Assembly (NCBI RefSeq): GCF_002355155.1
Contig: NZ_AP017369.1
Span: forward strand, 62,001-126,000
Length of the DNA stretch: 64,000 nt
Origin: Corynebacterium suranareeae
GTDB lineage: Bacteria > Actinomycetota > Actinomycetes > Mycobacteriales > Mycobacteriaceae
Direction: 5' to 3'
Shown: in pieces, positions 49,194 to 63,881 of the stretch
How positions within the stretch are numbered: position 1 is the first letter of the stretch
How the letters are laid out: each line of letters begins with the position of its first letter
Made by a program: the position numbers and the translations under genes
The notes under the pieces: generated by a model
Databases searched by the model: none
What the model was told of the DNA's origin: nothing
Seen by the model: the letters and a program-made list of their open reading frames with translations, nothing else

Positions 49194-50507
49194 ATGACTT
49201 TGACAAACGAACACAACCCGCCAGTCGCCGAGGCGACCGCGGGCACAACCCCCATGGCGAAAGTCATCAGGGGTGCAATTCTGGGAACTGTCGTGGAGTA
49301 CTACGACTTCGGAATCTATGGATATATGGCGACGATTCTCGCCGTGCATTTCTTCCAAGGAAATGAAACAACTGCCCTACTAGGAACTTTTGCAACGTTT
49401 GCCGTGGCATTCTTCATGCGCATTCCTGGCGGAATCTACTTTGGCCACATCGGTGATAAATACGGACGCAAAAAGGCACTGACCTGGACCATCCTGCTGA
49501 TGGCTGCAGCAACAGCCCTGATGGGTATGCTTCCCACCTACGTCACCTTAGGAATCTGGGCAACCGTATTGCTGGTTCTTGCTAGGTGCTTGCAAGGCTT
49601 TGCCGCAGGAGGTGAACTTGGTGGCGCAAATGCTTTTGTTTCTGAATACGCACCAACTAAAAAACGTGCCTCTTTAACCTCAATGGTGAATAGTGGAACT
49701 TATATCGGATCACTCCTTGCATCGTTGATGGCTCTGGGTCTGACTACCTTCGTGTCCATCGAAACCATCGATGCCTGGGCATGGCGCATCCCATTCCTGC
49801 TCTCCGTGGTCATCGGCCTGATCGGTTTGTATATCCGAAACAGCCTTGAGGATTCTCCTGAGTTTGCGAAAATGGAAAACTCTGAGGAAAAAGAAACACT
49901 GCCAATCAAAGTGCTTCTGACAGAATCCGGCAGCAAAGTTCTTGTCATTATTGCCCTAGGTGCCATGATCACCGGTGGTTACTACATTGCCTCTGTTTAT
50001 GCAGCAACATATCTGCAGATAGTGGGTGGACACACCTCAACAATGGCTTATACCTCAACATGTATTGCCATGATCTGTGGTGTTATCACCCTTCCGCTAG
50101 CAGGACGGTTGGCAGACAAAATTGGACGAAAACCACTCTTTTTAATCGGCTCAATCCTCGGAGTGATTCTTGGCTACCCAGCCTTCCTGCTCATGTCTTT
50201 GGATAATCCTTATCTCGCAGCAGCAAGCCAATCCATTCTCTTCATTTTGGTCTCGCTAGTAAATGGAGCTTCATTTGCCGCATACGCAGAAATGCTGCCA
50301 ACCAGAACGCGGTATTCAGGCATTGCCTTGGCAAATAACACCTCAAACACCCTGCTTGGAGGAACAGCACCATTTATTGCAACACTGCTGATTTCACAAA
50401 CCGGCCAAAATATTTCACCGGCGTACTACTTCATCGCTTGTTGTGCAGTCACCGTCATCGCGGCGCTCATATATAAGGAGACAAAAGGCCAGGAGCTTCC
50501 ACTATGA
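49194..50507 (+). CDS. MFS metabolite:proton symporter (MHS family)
   Basis: 437 residues, twelve helices. MHS-family marks: GTVVEYYDFGIYGYMA at helix 1, IPGGIYFGHIGDKYGRKKALT, RCLQGFAAGGELGGANAFVSEYAP, and a second RLADKIGRKPLF loop. Relatives take up organic acids such as shikimate, citrate, benzoates or betaines. A strong AAGGAGAAGGAGAG precedes ATG 49194. It begins a six-gene unit and probably imports that pathway's substrate, likely a carboxylic acid. Confidence 0.9.
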   Translation: MTLTNEHNPPVAEATAGTTPMAKVIRGAILGTVVEYYDFGIYGYMATILAVHFFQGNETTALLGTFATFAVAFFMRIPGGIYFGHIGDKYGRKKALTWTILLMAAATALMGMLPTYVTLGIWATVLLVLARCLQGFAAGGELGGANAFVSEYAPTKKRASLTSMVNSGTYIGSLLASLMALGLTTFVSIETIDAWAWRIPFLLSVVIGLIGLYIRNSLEDSPEFAKMENSEEKETLPIKVLLTESGSKVLVIIALGAMITGGYYIASVYAATYLQIVGGHTSTMAYTSTCIAMICGVITLPLAGRLADKIGRKPLFLIGSILGVILGYPAFLLMSLDNPYLAAASQSILFILVSLVNGASFAAYAEMLPTRTRYSGIALANNTSNTLLGGTAPFIATLLISQTGQNISPAYYFIACCAVTVIAALIYKETKGQELPL

Positions 50508-51310
50508 GCCATCCGCTGGACGGAAAGATCATTCTAGTCACCGGAGCAGCGAGTGGAATGGGGTTCGAAGAGTCCTTCCTGCTTGCTTCTCAAGGCGCGA
50601 CAGTATGGATGACTGATATTGCTGAAGACAAGCTCACGCACGCACACCAAAAAATCACCGAAGCTCTACCGGAACAGGTCGGGGATATCCACAGTGCGGT
50701 GTTAGATGTAGCGGATCCAGAATCGTGGCAGAGTCTCGCTGAGCAGATCAACAAGACTTCCTCCCGTTTAGATGGATTAGTAAACAATGCAGGTCGTACT
50801 TTGCGCGCATCTCTTGTAGAAACCAGTGATGAGGACTGGCTCAGCGTCATGAACATCAACCTCAACAGTGTGTTTTATGGCATGAAGTACTGTTATCCGC
50901 TGCTTTCACAATCTGAAAACGGTGCGGTGGTCAATGTATCTTCCACTGCTGGTCTCATGGCACACTCAGGGCCGGCTTATGGAACTTCAAAATGGGGTGT
51001 TCGTGGACTTAGCCAATCGGCTGCTCTGGAATTTGGCGGTAAAGGAATCAGAGTTAACTCCATCCACCCAGGTTTGGTATCGAGTCCTTTGCTTAACTCT
51101 GGATCTACCGAGTTTGTTGAAGAATCACTCAAAGCAATTCCCATGAATCGGATTGCTGAACCGCAAGAAATCGCCGAGGTAGTCAGCTTCCTCTTAAGTC
51201 CCCAATCTTCCTACATCACAGGAACCGAGATTGTTATTGATGGTGGATTGAATTCAGGCGGTACCTACAAACAAATTGTTGATCGAATCAACGCACAACT
51301 TCCACTCTAA
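50504..51310 (+). CDS. Short-chain dehydrogenase/reductase
   Basis: 268 residues, classical SDR. Cofactor motif TGAASGMGFE near the N-terminus, NNAG, catalytic Ser and YGTSK (Y-x3-K). The acidic residue ending beta 2 (DIAEDK) points to NAD rather than NADP. It overlaps the transporter gene by ATGA. It most likely oxidises a secondary alcohol of the imported compound to a ketone. It differs enough from the second SDR in the operon that the two probably handle different steps. Confidence 0.88.
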   Translation: MSHPLDGKIILVTGAASGMGFEESFLLASQGATVWMTDIAEDKLTHAHQKITEALPEQVGDIHSAVLDVADPESWQSLAEQINKTSSRLDGLVNNAGRTLRASLVETSDEDWLSVMNINLNSVFYGMKYCYPLLSQSENGAVVNVSSTAGLMAHSGPAYGTSKWGVRGLSQSAALEFGGKGIRVNSIHPGLVSSPLLNSGSTEFVEESLKAIPMNRIAEPQEIAEVVSFLLSPQSSYITGTEIVIDGGLNSGGTYKQIVDRINAQLPL

Positions 51311-51320
51311 GGAGTACTCC

Positions 51321-51716
51321 ATGCTTAAAATCACCGAGCTTATGCCTCAATTACAAAACCTTTATGGGCGCCAAAGCCGAGCGATTGATACCGGTAACGG
51401 AGTCGGGTGGGCTGACACCTATACAGCGGATGGATCATATTCATCGCCCAGCTATGAAAAGGCTTTTGTAGGAACTGAAGAACTGATCGAATTTGGCAAT
51501 AGTTTCCCAGTGCGCAGCCCTGGCGCAAAGCATTTGGCGCTTAATTTTCATGTCGTTGAGCAGACAGAAGAAGGGGCTGAAGTTATCTTGAACTTCGTTG
51601 TGGTCCAAGGAGAACCAGGAAAAGAATGCACAATCCTGAGAACTGTCACCGCTTTTGATTCCATCCGAATTATTGATGGCGAGCCACGACTATCTTCGCG
51701 ACGAATTGAATTCTAG
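51321..51716 (+). CDS. NTF2-like (SnoaL/ketosteroid isomerase fold) protein
   Basis: 131 residues. The pattern RAIDTGNGVGWADTYTADGSYSSP near residues 18-40, followed by a strand-rich half (LALNFHVVEQTEEGAEVILNF), matches the SnoaL-like group of the NTF2 superfamily, cone-shaped folds used as isomerases, dehydratases or dioxygenase beta subunits. TAAGGAG precedes ATG 51321. In this operon a double-bond isomerase or dehydratase would fit, but this is inference. Confidence 0.78.
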   Translation: MLKITELMPQLQNLYGRQSRAIDTGNGVGWADTYTADGSYSSPSYEKAFVGTEELIEFGNSFPVRSPGAKHLALNFHVVEQTEEGAEVILNFVVVQGEPGKECTILRTVTAFDSIRIIDGEPRLSSRRIEF

Positions 51717-51760
51717 ACAGTAAACAGTACCGACCAACTTTTAAAGAAAGACATTACAAC

Positions 51761-52576
51761 ATGGAAAACTACGTAAACCACAGCCCAATTGAAGCTCAGT
51801 ACCCAGATCTACCTGGAAAAACCATGGTGGTCACTGGAGCCGCACAAGGTATGGGACGGCTTTTTGCAACACAGCTGGCATCACGTGGAGTCAATGTTGT
51901 AATCACAGACCTCAACGACACAGTACTTGAAGCAGCAGAGGAGATTAATCAAGAATTGGCCGAAGCCAACTTGGCACAAGAGTCCGGCAAAGTAGTAGGT
52001 GTTGTTGCCGATGTGACGAAAAAGCAAGATCATGAAAAGACGCTGTCGGCGGCAGTTGAAAACTTCGGCGGACTCCACGGATGGATCAACAATGCTGGAG
52101 TGTTCCCAGAGGCTGAGTCACTGGACATTCCAGAATCACAGTTTGATCTAGCATTTGATGTCAACACTAAGGGCACATTGTTTGGCTCGCAGGTTGCTGC
52201 CGGTTACATGAAGGATCATGGTGGCGGAAGCATCGTTAATATGGCATCTGTTGCGGCCTTGCGTATCCGCAGAGGCAGGGGAGCTTACAACACCGCAAAA
52301 GCTGGAACCCTGCAGCTTTCTTATAGCCTCGCAGTGGAATTAGGGGATTTCAATGTGCGGGTAAATGCGGTTGCACCTGGTTTTATTGATACTGCGATGA
52401 CGCAATGGGTGCATGAACGAGAAGGCGCACTAGAACATGCTTTGGGCAATGTTCCACTGCATAGAATTGGTGCTCCAGTTGAAGTATTTGCGGCTGTGCT
52501 TTTCTTGCTATCTGATTCAGCAAGATACATCACCGGAAGCTGCATCTCTGTGGACGGAGGTTCACGCCATGTCTAA
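51761..52576 (+). CDS. Short-chain dehydrogenase/reductase
   Basis: 271 residues, classical SDR with TGAAQGMGRLFA, NNAGVFPEA, a serine in VNMASVAAL and YNTAK. DLND at the end of beta 2 suggests NAD. The C-terminus has the usual SARYITGSCISVDGG. AAAGAAAG lies upstream. Its last eight bases overlap the flavoprotein gene. Confidence 0.88.
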   Translation: MENYVNHSPIEAQYPDLPGKTMVVTGAAQGMGRLFATQLASRGVNVVITDLNDTVLEAAEEINQELAEANLAQESGKVVGVVADVTKKQDHEKTLSAAVENFGGLHGWINNAGVFPEAESLDIPESQFDLAFDVNTKGTLFGSQVAAGYMKDHGGGSIVNMASVAALRIRRGRGAYNTAKAGTLQLSYSLAVELGDFNVRVNAVAPGFIDTAMTQWVHEREGALEHALGNVPLHRIGAPVEVFAAVLFLLSDSARYITGSCISVDGGSRHV

Positions 52577-54008
52577 AGATTTTGATGTCATAGTGATTGG
52601 ATCGGGTGGTGCAGGACTATCCGCTGCTATTTCTGCTTCTGAACATGGAGCTGATGTGGTCATCCTGGAGGCTGAACCAAGCATTGGGGGTTCAACAATC
52701 CGATCAGCTGGTGTATTAGTTGCAGCTGGAACAAGTGTTCAACACAGTCTGGGCGTGGCAGATTCACCTCGAGAAATGTATCAGCACTATATGGACCTAA
52801 ACCAGTGGAAAGTCTTGCCTGGTCCGGTATGGAATTTTTGCCACGAGTCAGGGCCCATGTTTGAGTGGATGTTGGAGATGGGCCTTGAAGTTCCTGCTCA
52901 GCATTCCACTAATGCCCATATGCCAGGGCTAACTCGGGGTGGGGTGGAAAACAACAAACGATGCCACGTACCGAAAGGGCAAGGCAAAGGACTTGTAGAA
53001 GTACTAGATAAACGCCGACAAGAACTAGGCATCCCTGTTCGTCTAAACAGCAGAGTTACCGATTTAATTATTGAAGACAATCGAGTGCACGGAGTAAAAC
53101 TGGGAAAGGAAAGCATCCGTGCCGGTGCTGTGATTGTGGCATCTGGTGGATTCGCCCGCAACCAGGATCTTATTAGGAAGTATTTTCCAGATGCACTCGA
53201 TGCTGGAACAAGTTTCTTTGCTGTTGCCGCAGATGGATCTAGAGGTGATCACCTGAAATTTGCAGAAAAGCATGACCTGAAAGTCTTTGGCGAGAATTGG
53301 GGGCTATTGCTGCTTACCGCCAGGTTCCAACGTTTTCACCATTGGGTTAGCGGTTTTCCGCCTGCATCTCGGATTTATGTTGATGCCCAGGGGCTTCGCT
53401 GCATGGACGAAGATTCCACATATGCGGTCAACCAAGGGCAATGGAAAGCAGTGGGTAAGACAGTGTGGGCTGTTTTCGATGAGCGTGCACGTTTGAATCT
53501 GCCCACCGATGTTGAAGATTGGCAACCTGAACGAATCTTAGAGGAAGTAGATAAAGGTGTAGTTCTTAAGGCAGGGTCTTTGGAGGAGTTGGCAGGAAAG
53601 ATCGGAGTGCCACGAGAAAACTTGAAAAGTTCAGTAGACCGCTGGAATCACATGCTTCCCAACGGGATTGATGATGATTTCAGACGACATGACACTCTTC
53701 AAGCTAAGGGAGCCAAGCTGAAGCTTGATGCAATTGAACAAGGTCCTTTTTATGCGGTGCAAATTGTTCCCGGTGAATTGGTGTGTACGCATACAGGATT
53801 GCAGATTAATTCCACTGCACAAGTTGTAAATTCCAGCGGCAGTTTAGTTGATGGTCTTTTTGCAGCTGGCGAGGCAGCAGGGGGAATTTTAGGTGAGCGA
53901 TATGTTGGTGCTGGAAATTCGGTTACCAATGGTTTAGTTCTGGGAAAAATCGCAGGTACGCAAGCTGCGCTTTCACAGAATGAACCTATGTCCCAGGTGT
54001 TAATCTGA
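52569..54008 (+). CDS. FAD-dependent dehydrogenase, ketosteroid-dehydrogenase/fumarate-reductase type
   Basis: 479 residues. FAD-binding start DVIVIGSGGAGLSAAISASE, EAEPSIGGSTIRSAG, and the C-terminal GLFAAGEAAGGILGERYVGAG place it in the FAD_binding_2 group with 3-ketosteroid-delta1-dehydrogenase and flavocytochrome fumarate reductase. These enzymes add or remove a double bond next to a carbonyl. Together with two alcohol dehydrogenases this suggests desaturation of a cyclic ketone. A longer open frame upstream lies within the SDR gene; ATG 52569 fits the FAD motif. Confidence 0.85.
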   Translation: MSKDFDVIVIGSGGAGLSAAISASEHGADVVILEAEPSIGGSTIRSAGVLVAAGTSVQHSLGVADSPREMYQHYMDLNQWKVLPGPVWNFCHESGPMFEWMLEMGLEVPAQHSTNAHMPGLTRGGVENNKRCHVPKGQGKGLVEVLDKRRQELGIPVRLNSRVTDLIIEDNRVHGVKLGKESIRAGAVIVASGGFARNQDLIRKYFPDALDAGTSFFAVAADGSRGDHLKFAEKHDLKVFGENWGLLLLTARFQRFHHWVSGFPPASRIYVDAQGLRCMDEDSTYAVNQGQWKAVGKTVWAVFDERARLNLPTDVEDWQPERILEEVDKGVVLKAGSLEELAGKIGVPRENLKSSVDRWNHMLPNGIDDDFRRHDTLQAKGAKLKLDAIEQGPFYAVQIVPGELVCTHTGLQINSTAQVVNSSGSLVDGLFAAGEAAGGILGERYVGAGNSVTNGLVLGKIAGTQAALSQNEPMSQVLI

Positions 54009-54012
54009 ATCG

Positions 54013-54696
54013 ATGACTGAAGATACTAAGCCGGTAGGTGCTAAGACTCTGGACAATGGGCTTAGGGTGCTTGAAGCGGTGACAGCTGAGTCATCGGGGA
54101 TAACGTTGACTGAGTTGGCTGCCCAAACGCATCTTCATGCCACTGTTGTGTTCAGACTGTTGCAAACTTTGGAAGCTCATCGACTTGTTCGCAGAGATGA
54201 GAACAAAAGGTACTTTGCAGGATCTGGACTTATCCATTTGGCAGCCTCAGTCGATGTGGATCTTAAAGCGTTGGTGTCTCCTTATCTGCAAAGACTGGCT
54301 GACCGGACGCAGGCTTCTGCATATGTCATGATTTCTATCTCTGAAACTCAAGTAATGGCTGAACAAGTCGTCCAACCCATGATGCATCTGCCATATGTAA
54401 CGTTTTCAGCAGGTAGTATCCATGCCCTTGATCGGGGTTCTGGTGGTCGTGCCATTTTGGCTGGGCGAGCACCTTCTCGGAATGATTCGGAGGAGGTTAA
54501 ACTTGACCGGGAGCGTGGATATTCCATTAGTCATGGGGAGGTTCTTCCCAACGTGTATGGCGTGGCTGCTCCGTTGTCGCTGCCGGATCGTTTTCCAGAA
54601 GCATCAATTGGCGTATCCCTGCTTGATGATAAAAATTTGGATGAGATTGCAGATTTAGTCCGCGGTGTAGCTCGAGAGATCTCACTCCAAATTTGA
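54013..54696 (+). CDS. IclR-family transcriptional regulator
   Basis: 227 residues: an N-terminal winged helix (GITLTELAAQTHLHATVVFRLLQTLEAHRLV) and a C-terminal effector-binding domain (SAGSIHALDRGSGGRAILAG, GYSISHGEVLPNVYGVAAPL). Four bases separate it from the flavoprotein gene, so it is probably co-transcribed and controls its own operon, likely through the palindromes at 49130-49162. The effector would be the pathway substrate or intermediate. The end overlaps the convergent lipase gene by 15 bases. Confidence 0.87.
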   Translation: MTEDTKPVGAKTLDNGLRVLEAVTAESSGITLTELAAQTHLHATVVFRLLQTLEAHRLVRRDENKRYFAGSGLIHLAASVDVDLKALVSPYLQRLADRTQASAYVMISISETQVMAEQVVQPMMHLPYVTFSAGSIHALDRGSGGRAILAGRAPSRNDSEEVKLDRERGYSISHGEVLPNVYGVAAPLSLPDRFPEASIGVSLLDDKNLDEIADLVRGVAREISLQI

Positions 54697-59223: not shown

Positions 59224-59751
59224 CTAGCGCCTTTGCTCTCGAACCTCCTCTGCGCGCTTTCCGTTGAGGAGTTTATTGAGCAGTGAAATTAAAAGATCCC
59301 TTTCGATCGCGGTGAGGGAGCTAGACCATTGGGTTTCGAGGTCGTTTTGTAGAGGGAAGACTTTGTTTATATATTCCTCACCTTTGGGTGTGAGGATAAG
59401 GAGTTTTGACCTGCGATCTTCAGCCGATGCCTCCTGGGTAACATAACCCTGCTTGAGCAGTGGCTTCAGTAAATTTGAGATTGCCGATTTTCCCATTCCG
59501 GTTAGTTCAGCGGCTCGTGCCGGGGTGAGTGGACCAGCAAGCCAGACGACGAAAATAACGCGATAAGCTGCCCAACTTGACTCCTCGGGGCGGTGGACTG
59601 TCGCATCAAAGTCGTATGTGAGCAGGTGGGACACCCGATTAAGTGCTACGGAGAGCTGGTTGGCTGTTGGGTCTGAATGTGGAACTAGTTCGGCCACTTT
59701 GGAGCTGGCAAACTCTGCAAAATTCCGATATTCCAGATTGTCTTGTGTCAT
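59224..59751 (-). CDS. MarR-family regulator
   Basis: 175 residues. Winged helix: ARAAELTGMGKSAISNLLKPLLKQGYVTQEASAEDRRSKLL, preceded by a helical part with VHRPEESSWAAYRVIFVVW. MarR proteins bind aromatic ligands and repress nearby catabolic genes. It is divergent from the homogentisate operon, and related to the second MarR gene at 63375. GGAG lies five bases before ATG 59751. Likely the repressor acting at the TAGT-N10-ACTA sites or at the palindrome 59838-59854. Confidence 0.87.
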   Translation of the reverse strand: MTQDNLEYRNFAEFASSKVAELVPHSDPTANQLSVALNRVSHLLTYDFDATVHRPEESSWAAYRVIFVVWLAGPLTPARAAELTGMGKSAISNLLKPLLKQGYVTQEASAEDRRSKLLILTPKGEEYINKVFPLQNDLETQWSSSLTAIERDLLISLLNKLLNGKRAEEVREQRR

Positions 59752-59837
59752 TTCGTCTCCTTTGTTTGAAATGAGCATAATCCAATCCAAATTGCGTAGT
59801 TGTAAAAGGATCTTGGAATGTGTGAAAAGCCAATGGG

Positions 59838-60008: not shown

Positions 60009-61217
60009 ATGGCTTACTACCGTTCTCTAGGAACACTTCCTCGCCAGCGCCACACGGTTCTGCGCGGAGAAGATGGACGTTTACGTTTTGAAGAACTCAT
60101 GGGGGAAGAAGGCTTTTCCTCTGATTCATCGTTGCTGTACCACAAGGAAATTCCATCTGCATTGGTTGATGCGCGTCCGTGGGTGCTTCCGGATCAAACA
60201 CTGACTCCTAATGATCCGTTGATTCCACTGCACTTAAAGCTTCATGAATTAGATGCGCCCGCGGGACAAAAAGTTAATGCGGTGACAGATCGTCGTTTGG
60301 TTCTTGGAAACTCTGATGTACGTATTTCCTATGCGAAAGTAAATGAGACCTCGCCACTGTATAAAAACGGTGTCGGTGATGAATGCGTTTATGTTGAACG
60401 TGGCTCGGCACTTTTAGAAACTCAATTTGGTGCCCTAGAGGTATCCCAAGGCGATTATGCCATGATTCCTCGTGCAGCAATCCACCGCTGGGTCCTGCGA
60501 GATGGTGAAGAAGCACGACTTTATTTCATTGAAGCAAATAGCCATATCGCGCCACCAAAACGCTTTTTGTCCAAGTATGGCCAGCTTCTAGAACATGCTC
60601 CTTATTGTGAGCGTGACTTCCGAGGACCAACTGAGATTCTCTTACGTGAAGAAGAAGATGTAGAGGTTTATATCAAGCACCGTGGTGCAGGACCTTCCGG
60701 ATTGTCTGGTTCCATCCATGTCTTGCCTACACACCCATTTGATGTGGTGGCGTGGGATGGCTGCCTGTATCCCTATGTTTTCAACATCAAGGATTACATG
60801 CCGTTAACGGGTAAAGTGCACCAGCCACCACCATCGCACCAGGTGTGGGAGGGATGGAACTTTGTGATCTGCAACTTTGTTCCTCGAAAAGTTGATTACC
60901 ACGAGGGCGCGATCCCAGTTCCGTACTACCACTCCAACGTGGATTCTGATGAGGTCATGTTCTACGTCGAAGGTAACTATGAGGCACGAAAAGGGTCAGG
61001 AATTAAAGAAGGATCCATTTCTCTGCACCCTGGTGGACACCCGCACGGGCCACAGCCAGGTGCAATGGAAGCATCCCTTGGCGTTGAATACTTCGATGAG
61101 ACCGCAGTGATGGTTGATACCTTCAAACCTCTGCTGCTTGGTGAGGCAGGAATTGCCTGCAATGATCCAAAATATGCCTCTTCCTGGACTGGCGGTCGCT
61201 GGATTGGAGAGTCATAG
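60009..61217 (+). CDS. hmgA: Homogentisate 1,2-dioxygenase
   Basis: 402-residue cupin dioxygenase opening the homogentisate ring to maleylacetoacetate. Cupin start with CVYVERGSALLETQFGALEV near residue 125, and in the C-terminal domain the Fe(II) ligands in PYYHSNVDSDEVMFY (His and Glu) and LHPGGHPHGP (His). The sequence fits the shorter actinobacterial branch (about 400 residues against 430-445 in proteobacteria and humans). GAAAGGGAAAC precedes ATG 60009. First gene of a three-gene operon. Confidence 0.92.
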   Translation: MAYYRSLGTLPRQRHTVLRGEDGRLRFEELMGEEGFSSDSSLLYHKEIPSALVDARPWVLPDQTLTPNDPLIPLHLKLHELDAPAGQKVNAVTDRRLVLGNSDVRISYAKVNETSPLYKNGVGDECVYVERGSALLETQFGALEVSQGDYAMIPRAAIHRWVLRDGEEARLYFIEANSHIAPPKRFLSKYGQLLEHAPYCERDFRGPTEILLREEEDVEVYIKHRGAGPSGLSGSIHVLPTHPFDVVAWDGCLYPYVFNIKDYMPLTGKVHQPPPSHQVWEGWNFVICNFVPRKVDYHEGAIPVPYYHSNVDSDEVMFYVEGNYEARKGSGIKEGSISLHPGGHPHGPQPGAMEASLGVEYFDETAVMVDTFKPLLLGEAGIACNDPKYASSWTGGRWIGES

Positions 61218-61219
61218 GT

Positions 61220-62038
61220 GTGTCTACGCTTCAACAAATCACTAAATTTTTTGATGATGCCGCAATTTTTCCACCGGGCTTAGCACCGCTGCGCGAAGCG
61301 GTTCAAGCCCACATTGCAAGACGAGACGATCCCGTATCTCAAGTGGTGGGTCCATTCATTGTGCCTGTGGCAAAACTAGCGGAAGCTGCCACCTATGCAG
61401 GTGGGGAAAAACTTGATGTATCGGTGATTCTTAATTCCACAGAAGTTGATCTGTTGGTGGAAACAGCCAAAAAGTACTCCAACATTGAGATTGTGGCTGT
61501 GGAGGCCAAAATAGTTGATGGGCTTGAGGGGATAGCTGAAATACGGGAGAGGTTGGCGTCGACAAGCATTTTCGTTGAGCTACCCGCTGACCTGGTCAGC
61601 GCTGACAACCTTAAATATCTGCGCACGCTGGGCGCCGGGCTGAAGTTTCGCACCGGCGGGATCCGCCAAGAGCTTTTCCCCACATCACAGCAGCTTATCG
61701 ACGTGCTCGCTCTGGCAATCAGAACGGAAATCCCTTTCAAATTGACGGCTGGGTTGCATCGTGCGATGCGATACAAGGATGAAAAAACCGGATTTCAACA
61801 TTTTGGATTCCTCAATGTGGCCGCAGCTGTTAAAGAGTTGCAATCTGGGCATGGGGTAGAAGCAGCGCTTCAAATTTTGGACTCGGACGATGCGCAGCAA
61901 GTGATTGAAGTGGTGTCCAGGGATCAGCAGTGGCGCACATCGTTTCAAAGCTTTGGCACCTGCAGCATTGCAGAACCATTGGAAACTTTGGCAGATATTG
62001 GCTTTATCGACACCACGATTTTTGACATCGAAGGATAG
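61220..62038 (+). CDS. Unknown protein between hmgA and fahA; candidate maleylacetoacetate isomerase replacement
   Basis: 272 residues, cytoplasmic. GTG 61220 lies two bases after the hmgA stop and fahA starts five bases after its end, so the three are one transcript. Conserved with the paralogue at 56717: LRTLGAGLKFRTGGIRQELF (about residues 134-153), IPFKLTAGLHRAMRYKDEKT and FQHFGFLNVAAAV. The order of strands and basic residues suggests a phosphate- or carboxylate-binding barrel. It does not look like the zeta-class glutathione transferase or the DinB-type isomerase. Its position implies the missing isomerisation or another step of homogentisate breakdown; unproven. Confidence 0.75.
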   Translation: MSTLQQITKFFDDAAIFPPGLAPLREAVQAHIARRDDPVSQVVGPFIVPVAKLAEAATYAGGEKLDVSVILNSTEVDLLVETAKKYSNIEIVAVEAKIVDGLEGIAEIRERLASTSIFVELPADLVSADNLKYLRTLGAGLKFRTGGIRQELFPTSQQLIDVLALAIRTEIPFKLTAGLHRAMRYKDEKTGFQHFGFLNVAAAVKELQSGHGVEAALQILDSDDAQQVIEVVSRDQQWRTSFQSFGTCSIAEPLETLADIGFIDTTIFDIEG

Positions 62039-62043
62039 GACAT

Positions 62044-63270
62044 ATGACTTCAACGGCAGTAAAAGAACTAGCAACCGACGGTTTTGGAATCGAAAACCTC
62101 CCCTATGGTTCATTTGAACTTGAGGGTGAAACCCATTTGGGAGTCCGATTGGGGGATCACGTCATTGACCTTAAATCACTGATTTCCAAAATAGGTGGAT
62201 TAGACGAAGAGGTAGCTCGCGCAGCTTCCGCCTCCAACTTGGATCTGCTTCTAGCCGGCGGAAAAGCCATATGGTCACCGCTGCGTGCATGGTTGCAAAC
62301 AACCCTAAAAGATGAAGAGGCATCAGAAGAAGTACTGGCCAGCGCCGTGCCACTTAATGAAGTGACCATGAAGCTGCCATTTACCCCAGCTGATTACGTG
62401 GATTATTATGCGTCCGAGCATCACGCAACCAATCTTGGAAAAATGTTCCGCCCCAATGAAGATGCGCTAAAGCCCAACTGGAAGCACCTCCCAGTTGGAT
62501 ACCACGGCAGGTCAGGAACCATTTTTGCATCAGGAACAGATGTTATTCGCCCAAAGGGTTTGCGTCCCGGCCAAGATTCCATTCCATCATTTGGGCCAAG
62601 TAACCGGCTTGATATTGAAGCAGAGATGGGCTTTGTTCTAGGTGGATCTGCACCTCGTGGTGAGGTAAATATTGCAGATGCAGCAGATCATATTTTTGGC
62701 GCATTTTTGTTTAATGACTGGTCAGCTCGTGATATTCAAAACTATGAGTATGTGCCTTTAGGTCCCAACCTTGGAAAATCTTTCGCCTCCACGGTAGGCG
62801 AATGGGTTGTACCTTTTGAAGCTTTAAACGCGGCTCGAATCGCTCCACCGAAAAGAACTTTTGAGCTCGCGCCCTACCTTCAGGATCCAACAGATGAGCA
62901 CGGTGAATTTGGCCTCGATGTGACTTTAACCGTGCGTCTTAATGATCAAGCAGTGTCTCATCCTCCATTTGGGTTGATGTACTTTACCGCGCCACAAATG
63001 CTGGCACATATGACCGTTAATGGCGGTTCCCTGCGCCCAGGCGATATGTTTGCCTCGGGCACCATCTCTGGCCCGGATGCCAACCAACGTGGATCATTCA
63101 TTGAACTTTCCTGGGGTGGAAAAGAACCACTGCAACTCGAAGACGGTAGTGAGATCACCTTTCTCCGGGATGGCGATACCGTAACACTGCAAGCAGTTGC
63201 GCCTGGACCTGATGGTTCAACAATCAGCTTTGGTGACTGTGTGGGAACGATCAAACCAGCAACCGACTAA
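62044..63270 (+). CDS. fahA: Fumarylacetoacetase
   Basis: 408 residues, full FAH length. Catalytic and metal-binding motifs: DYVDYYASEHHATNLGKMFR (Asp ligand and catalytic His), LDIEAEMGFVLG (two Glu ligands), FNDWSARDIQNYE (Asp) and the late region MLAHMTVNGGSLRPGD. It splits fumarylacetoacetate to fumarate and acetoacetate, the last step of the pathway. GAAGGATAGGACAT precedes ATG 62044. Followed by a strong terminator. Confidence 0.95.
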   Translation: MTSTAVKELATDGFGIENLPYGSFELEGETHLGVRLGDHVIDLKSLISKIGGLDEEVARAASASNLDLLLAGGKAIWSPLRAWLQTTLKDEEASEEVLASAVPLNEVTMKLPFTPADYVDYYASEHHATNLGKMFRPNEDALKPNWKHLPVGYHGRSGTIFASGTDVIRPKGLRPGQDSIPSFGPSNRLDIEAEMGFVLGGSAPRGEVNIADAADHIFGAFLFNDWSARDIQNYEYVPLGPNLGKSFASTVGEWVVPFEALNAARIAPPKRTFELAPYLQDPTDEHGEFGLDVTLTVRLNDQAVSHPPFGLMYFTAPQMLAHMTVNGGSLRPGDMFASGTISGPDANQRGSFIELSWGGKEPLQLEDGSEITFLRDGDTVTLQAVAPGPDGSTISFGDCVGTIKPATD

Positions 63271-63374: not shown

Positions 63375-63881
63375 ATGACGGTTAACTCAGAAAGTTTTGA
63401 ATACTGGGATTTTGTGCGAAGCAGCCGAGCGAAACTTTCGGAGGAATTATCTGGAATTGATATCAGCCCCAATGATTTAGCCATGATTCTCAACCGTGCA
63501 TCCGGTGTTGCCACCGGGGTTTCCGAAGCAGAAGTTCACCGCCCGAAAGGCATGGGGTGGAATGCCTTTAAAGTGCTTTTTATTTTGTGGATGGAAGGTG
63601 ACCTAGAGCAGCATCGCGTGGCCATGCTTGCAGGAACTAGCAGGGCAACCACCTCGTCGATCGTTAAATCTTTAGTCAGTGCAGGGTATGTAGAGCAAAC
63701 ACCGTCGACGATCGATAAACGCACGCATGTGCTTTCTTTGACGCTGTCAGGGGCAGAACTAATCAAAGAATCGTACTTGGAACAAAATGACATTTTATCC
63801 TCGTGGAACCGCAGACTGACTAAAACTGAACAAGAAATTTTAAAGATGCTGCTTTTGAAGTTGCTGCGAGGAGATGAATAG
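63375..63881 (+). CDS. MarR-family regulator, second copy
   Basis: 168 residues, related to the regulator at 59224: VHRPKGMGWNAFKVLFILW, HRVAMLAGTSRATTSSIVKSL and YVEQTPSTIDKRTHVLSLT. It may respond to a different intermediate or regulate another part of the locus. ATG 63375 has AAGACGCAC upstream, a weak site. It lies after the fahA terminator, thus probably has its own promoter. The 119 bases after it to the window end contain no supported gene. Confidence 0.85.
   Translation: MTVNSESFEYWDFVRSSRAKLSEELSGIDISPNDLAMILNRASGVATGVSEAEVHRPKGMGWNAFKVLFILWMEGDLEQHRVAMLAGTSRATTSSIVKSLVSAGYVEQTPSTIDKRTHVLSLTLSGAELIKESYLEQNDILSSWNRRLTKTEQEILKMLLLKLLRGDE

Follow-up and report, generated by a model that had tools for sequence, protein, structure and literature searches.

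The maleylacetoacetate and maleylpyruvate isomerases described so far borrow the thiol of a small molecule, glutathione or mycothiol, and fall into two families: the zeta-class glutathione S-transferases (GSTs; MaiA/GSTZ, TIGR01262) and the DinB/MDMPI maleylpyruvate isomerases (PF11716, TIGR03083), which catalyze a cis-trans step of the same type in the gentisate pathway, a parallel route. Cofactor-free chemistry of this kind exists in maleate cis-trans isomerase, a member of the Asp/Glu racemase superfamily that relies on a cysteine of the enzyme itself. Published excerpts name glutathione as the thiol of the known isomerase. The subject of this article is gene X, the middle gene of a homogentisate operon in Corynebacterium suranareeae, whose linkage and modeled fold suggest that it probably encodes a maleylacetoacetate cis-trans isomerase needing neither glutathione nor mycothiol. 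Many soil bacteria that degrade homogentisate, which derives from tyrosine, have this unnamed gene immediately ahead of fahA, the last of the pathway. The window, meaning the whole stretch analyzed, comprises 64,000 nucleotides of contig NZ_AP017369.1 (assembly GCF_002355155.1, positions 62,001 to 126,000), and the operon lies near its end:

60009-61217, + strand: hmgA, homogentisate 1,2-dioxygenase, 402 amino acids; Pfam HgmA_N and HgmA_C above cut-off
61220-62038, + strand: gene X, proposed thiol-cofactor-free maleylacetoacetate isomerase, 272 amino acids; fahA linkage, predicted barrel like that of deoxyribose-phosphate aldolase (DERA), conserved residues
62044-63270, + strand: fahA, fumarylacetoacetase, 408 amino acids; TIGR01266 at 381.4 bits against a cut-off of 375.3

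The three genes share one strand with gaps of 2 bases (hmgA/X) and 5 bases (X/fahA), so the order and tight packing described in an earlier, sequence-only reading of this DNA are borne out, and the KFRTGG and KLTAGLHRA motifs which it picked out are present in X and conserved. HmgA carries both of its Pfam domains and reaches 72.6 bits against TIGR01015 (cut-off 510.75); by sequence it appears to belong to a clade distant from that family. The same reading had called the 272-residue protein unknown, a status that stands, since X has no match in Pfam, NCBIfam or PHROGs at E<=1. Among the families of special interest here, it matched neither TIGR01262 nor the GST Pfam domains (Pfam, NCBIfam, E<=1), neither PF11716 nor TIGR03083 (the MDMPI_N search of the genome gave two other loci), and not the FAH family PF01557, which in the operon is matched by fahA alone and which has three loci in the genome, none of them X. 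No credible hit emerged when a profile of 82 X members was run against the sequences of the PDB (best E 0.11; best E 0.23 in a second sequence search), and the 82 members scanned against Pfam gave scattered matches with best E-values of 0.0063 and 0.0073. No match was found in phage records, and none of 28 pattern matches in viral contigs was confirmed. A tblastn search of plasmids with X returned 24 records, annotated as 'hypothetical protein' under the match in 22 and unannotated there in 2. Within the genus of the window genome X is scarce (5 of 171 genomes). In the titles and opening lines of abstracts listed from the open-license PMC literature, with subscription literature outside this scope, neither the X family nor a maleylacetoacetate isomerase working without a thiol appears as the subject of a paper.

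Genomic linkage of gene X

X and HmgA occur together. In a family sample of 151 genomes, with HmgA scored at E<=1e-100, X was present in 46, HmgA in 59 and both in 45 (Fisher p 8e-25, kinship ignored); of the family loci other than that of the window, 29 of 29 have X between an upstream hmgA and a downstream fahA, and the other 16 X genomes of the sample have HmgA directly beside X in 15 cases, G116 holding X without HmgA. The named actinobacterial loci are the best 80 of at least 593 stretches (584 confirmed) from a peptide-pattern scan with X, and at least seven contigs, judged by their equal lengths, seem to be shared with the family loci. Here fahA follows X at 78 of the 80 by a rule requiring a same-strand fahA match no farther than 400 bases downstream, or at 79 counting L103, where the match begins 520 bases downstream, and L067 has no fahA after X. 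At 76 of the 80 hmgA precedes X, the others showing a MarR gene and no hmgA (L075, L079) or little upstream sequence (L048, L106). In an even phylum sample of 396 actinobacterial genomes X was found in 21, and at the 19 loci inspected (the others being the window and G022/L032) fahA follows X in 17, with L116 lacking fahA and L140 ending at the contig edge; hmgA lies directly before X on the same strand at 3 of the 19, and on the opposite strand within about 1.5 kb of X at L127, L129 and L130. The constant partner of X is fahA, not hmgA. Where X stands without fahA, it directly adjoins a gene or fragment that by eye encodes an FAD-type aromatic hydroxylase (L116:4948-7654, L193:6016-7347).

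The link of X to fahA extends across three phyla. Priestia megaterium (Bacillota) has the order hppD-X-fahA-hisC-hmgA-amino acid permease, an unannotated plasmid of Kovacikia minuta (Cyanobacteriota) carries X-FahA on the strand opposite to its HmgA and HppD matches, and Tsukamurella (Actinomycetota) has hppD-hmgA-X-fahA. In these three clusters isomerization is the sole step from hydroxyphenylpyruvate onward without a named or clearly matching gene, and X is the gene left over.

TIGR01262 had zero matches at E<=1 in the window genome and none above cut-off in the 396 actinobacterial genomes, a search in which 1 of 14 control genomes scored above cut-off. Weaker GST matches (E<=1e-10) occur in 43 of the 396, mostly from one family, and two of these genomes, G267 and G461, also carry X. 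In G461 the X gene (L117) is shortened in mid-protein, and on another contig (L119) a GST-like protein (TIGR01262, 58 bits) lies about 1 kb from HmgA; it is possible that this protein replaces the shortened X.

Predicted fold and conserved residues

A structure prediction, which the sequence-only reading had proposed as a check, places X on a TIM barrel nearest to the deoxyribose-phosphate aldolases. The AlphaFold model computed from 82 sequences (pLDDT 96.1, pTM 0.93) has eight strands alternating with helices, and its structure matches identify the predicted fold as a TIM barrel: the nine best in the PDB, from six entries, are all named aldolase or deoxyribose-phosphate aldolase, and 1mzh_A aligns at E 2.1e-5 with probability 1.00 and TM-scores of 0.53 (query) and 0.63 (target), so that the likeness to a DERA-kind barrel is a moderate one between a prediction and known structures. 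In an unforced local profile alignment, itself weak (P 0.046), Lys142 of X falls on Lys167 of E. coli DeoC and Lys174 on Lys201, the two catalytic lysines of DERA, and in the model Lys142 sits on strand 6 and Lys174 on strand 7, so that through this weak alignment X has a counterpart of the DERA lysine pair on those strands. Sequence profiles (Pfam, NCBIfam, hhalign) do not place X among the DERAs. It is set apart from DeoC/DERA, moreover, by its conserved Cys248 and His180 and by residing in an operon for homogentisate rather than for nucleoside breakdown.

Conservation was computed over 107 distinct X proteins, a set without those of L117, L140 and L193, which are shortened or cut. D12, P19, R144 and G196 are invariant in 107 of 107; E95, E120 and K174 are each kept in 106; and for K142, H180 and C248 the figure is 105 each, the same two proteins (L126 and L131) having lost all three. 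Cys248 directly follows strand 8 of the model, and K142, K174, C248 and other conserved residues may share one pocket. The two X copies without K142, H180 and C248 (L131:7405-8331 and L126:6724-7662), both beside fahA, are possibly dead or repurposed.

Selenocysteine in X was considered for five phylum-sample hits with an inner TGA and rejected on a six-frame reading with TGA as U: in L113, L116 and L117 the TGA stands at the very end of the aligned part and never at Cys248, L115 has none in the aligned part, and the L114 frame continues past the Cys248 position without a stop.

Proposed reaction

From the computed operon, genomic linkage, predicted fold and conserved residues we infer the substrate, reaction and chemistry of X. 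That X acts in the homogentisate pathway is almost certain. HmgA would open the homogentisate ring to give maleylacetoacetate, X would convert its cis double bond to trans, giving fumarylacetoacetate, and FahA would hydrolyze the latter to fumarate and acetoacetate. An isomerase is the best-supported reading because in three phyla X keeps company with fahA, because it occupies a place where the gene for the isomerase is missing, because X matches neither the GST nor the DinB family, and because an aldolase-like barrel is combined with a conserved cysteine. As for the chemistry, Lys142 on strand 6 would make an iminium with the ketone adjoining the double bond, Lys174 on strand 7 assisting it as in the DERA lysine pair; the thiol of Cys248 would then add to the iminium-activated double bond, taking the place of glutathione, whereupon the bond would rotate and the thiol leave to release the trans product. 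These iminium-plus-cysteine details are tentative. X would thus share with MaiA/GSTZ its proposed reaction and its place in the pathway, but differ from it in lacking any GST family match, in having a predicted TIM barrel where MaiA/GSTZ has the GST fold, and in bringing its own conserved cysteine; with maleate cis-trans isomerase the proposed reaction shows an analogy of chemistry, that enzyme being absent among the best 50 of the 1624 PDB matches of the X model.

If this is true, X fills a pathway hole in homogentisate breakdown in organisms such as Rhodococcus ruber Chol-4 and Rhodococcus globerulus, gives a name to a family now annotated 'hypothetical protein', and shows a textbook step solved in one more, unrelated way, in which a lysine iminium and an own thiol are combined on an aldolase-like barrel. 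Homogentisate supports growth of R. ruber Chol-4, and the available text of that study mentions hmgABC genes generally, its cluster legend listing lp, hmgR, hmgA, hmgB, ech and acs with no isomerase named there (PMC6498646); the available text on R. globerulus names HmgA and HmgB as detected (PMC11889516). Another R. ruber strain carries X in this cluster (L041), and a Streptomyces albidoflavus strain has hmgA-X-fahA (L042). The broadest form of the proposal is more doubtful still than the chemical details: X may represent an unnamed, multi-phylum family of aldolase-fold isomerases, in which lysine-iminium and cysteine catalysis of the cis-to-trans step within one enzyme replaces the small thiol of both known families, with the paralog X2 (see below) applying the same chemistry to another substrate.

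Evidence against the proposal and rival explanations

Several results weigh against the isomerase. In the phylum sample, 10 of the 21 X genomes have no HmgA at E 1e-60, so that the pathway there rests on fahA and sometimes on the weak HmgA or HppD matches which some HmgA-poor X loci show nearby, and the X of L116 stands without even fahA. The TM-scores are moderate, and other TIM barrels come next in the list with weaker E-values, so part of the likeness between X and DERA is that of a common barrel; at the sequence level the kinship of the two falls short of significance (hhalign gives a probability of 0.4% with a single DeoC and of 1.2%, P 0.046, with a four-sequence DERA profile). Inside an hmgA-X-fahA cluster, moreover, the X of L131 has lost K142, H180 and C248. 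The sequence-only reading was right that no GST or DinB isomerase is encoded in the operon, and zeta-class GSTs have no match in the whole genome either, but the window genome encodes two MDMPI_N (DinB-type) proteins, both above the TIGR03083 cut-off. One is clustered with an FAH-family hydrolase and a gentisate-dioxygenase-like protein (TIGR02272, 260 bits, cut-off 442), a gentisate-type setting; the second, which also matches TIGR03085, is located elsewhere in the genome. G560, of the same genus, retains X although about 2 kb separate its fahA from an MDMPI gene with FAH-family matches (L177:3600-5341).

The survey of actinobacterial clusters that had been proposed as a further check gave the X-fahA linkage and the absence of TIGR01262 reported above, but it also uncovered operons without X. 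The family sample holds 14 genomes with HmgA and without X. In 12 of them hmgA is next to fahA; no fahA appears at L181 and L191, where HmgA matches less well. Together with four genomes from outside the family these make 18 X-less genomes, in none of which X was found at E<=0.001 (a search without positive control) or maiA above cut-off, with two weak GST matches. No shared gene that could replace X came to light near such operons: when the neighboring frames of the 14 loci were clustered, no family, HppD included, was present at more than 5 loci and none was a candidate isomerase, and single MDMPI queries gave no match within the few kb inspected. A tree of FahA was built from 125 rows, of which 110 have X, most of these collected for that reason; on it the X label switches 11 times, and starred branches force 9 of the switches. 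X-bearing and X-less rows are not alike in their FahA columns and end-branch lengths (Mann-Whitney p 0.024, kinship ignored), a difference on which no claim is built. The pathway seems to run without X in these genomes, and since 12 adjacent operons have neither X nor maiA elsewhere in the genome, either a bypass of the step exists or X has an accessory role. With two DinB-type proteins in the window genome besides, X cannot be called the sole or the required isomerase.

These observations speak most directly for X as an accessory or repair enzyme, isomerization being spontaneous, driven by mycothiol, carried out by a DinB-type enzyme from an unlinked gene, or unnecessary because FahA itself accepts maleylacetoacetate. 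The second DinB-type protein, without an assigned role, is a candidate for the unlinked isomerase, and the available text of a study of Streptomyces albidoflavus places a protein of the mycothiol-dependent maleylpyruvate isomerase family among its tyrosine-pathway genes (PMC11012174). Dispensability, however, fits the isomerase as well as an accessory role, as the step has a known nonenzymatic bypass, described for mice in published excerpts, and the known isomerase is likewise dispensable, human GSTZ1 deficiency seeming, in similar excerpts, clinically insignificant; moreover, the tyrosine clusters of Priestia, Kovacikia and Tsukamurella hold X exactly where the isomerase alone is unnamed, and an accessory role is accordingly judged unlikely. 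Cyanobacteria have glutathione as their small thiol; excerpts of published work give mycothiol for actinomycetes and bacillithiol for Firmicutes. X could be a maleylacetoacetate isomerase of new fold that still depends on a low-molecular-weight thiol, but one X family spanning phyla with different thiols, and carrying its own conserved cysteine, makes this quite improbable.

The sequence-only reading had left the choice between a possibly cofactor-independent isomerase and a hydrolase acting directly on maleylacetoacetate, and of these the former is the better supported. A direct cleavage to maleate and acetoacetate, by Schiff-base C-C scission parallel to FahA, would suit a model nearest to Schiff-base C-C lyases and an aligned aldolase lysine pair, but it is very unlikely because fahA stays beside X at nearly all loci and such an enzyme would make FahA redundant. 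The same lysines, and the tighter linkage of X to fahA than to hmgA in the phylum sample, could be accommodated by an enzyme acting on acetoacetate, the FahA product, as a Schiff-base decarboxylase or condensing enzyme. This is most improbable, for acetoacetate seems to be routed to CoA, as indicated by genes for a CoA transferase and an acetyl-CoA acetyltransferase about 5 kb from the Rhodococcus rhodochrous locus and by an acetoacetyl-CoA synthetase in the R. ruber cluster, and the conserved cysteine would be left unexplained.

Paralog X2 and neighboring genes

Around the operon the window contains:

59224-59790, - strand: MarR-family regulator, divergent from hmgA; PF12802, 42.8 bits
57572-59188, - strand: GntP-like transporter; PF02447, 19.8 bits, below the cut-off of 22.5
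63375-63881, + strand: second MarR-family regulator; PF01047, 43.8 bits
56714-57550, + strand: X2, a paralog of X retaining the conserved residues; 46-48% identity to X

Homologs of the divergent MarR regulator are found near hmgA at many related loci, and three genomes of this genus (L177-L179) as well as Rothia (L033) have a GntP-like gene close to hmgA-X-fahA; the transporter is possibly a homogentisate importer. The window genome has no HPPD above cut-off (best 115 against 277 bits, inside a 640-codon frame), and homogentisate may therefore come from outside.

X2, which the sequence-only reading did not mention, stands tail to tail with the GntP-like gene. A copy in G643 of the same genus (L176) is 77% identical (pN 0.17, pS 0.80); the 16 kb examined around it contain no match to HmgA or FahA, and the GntP gene there is shortened and in pieces. 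X2 may serve another unsaturated acid. In G643 it overlaps by four bases a 247-amino-acid gene that looks amidohydrolase-like by eye (L176:8156-9762), and in the window there is no amidohydrolase-like gene between X2 and GntP. Farther upstream (49194-54696), the window carries in a row an MFS transporter, two short-chain dehydrogenases, an FAD_binding_2 oxidoreductase and an IclR regulator.

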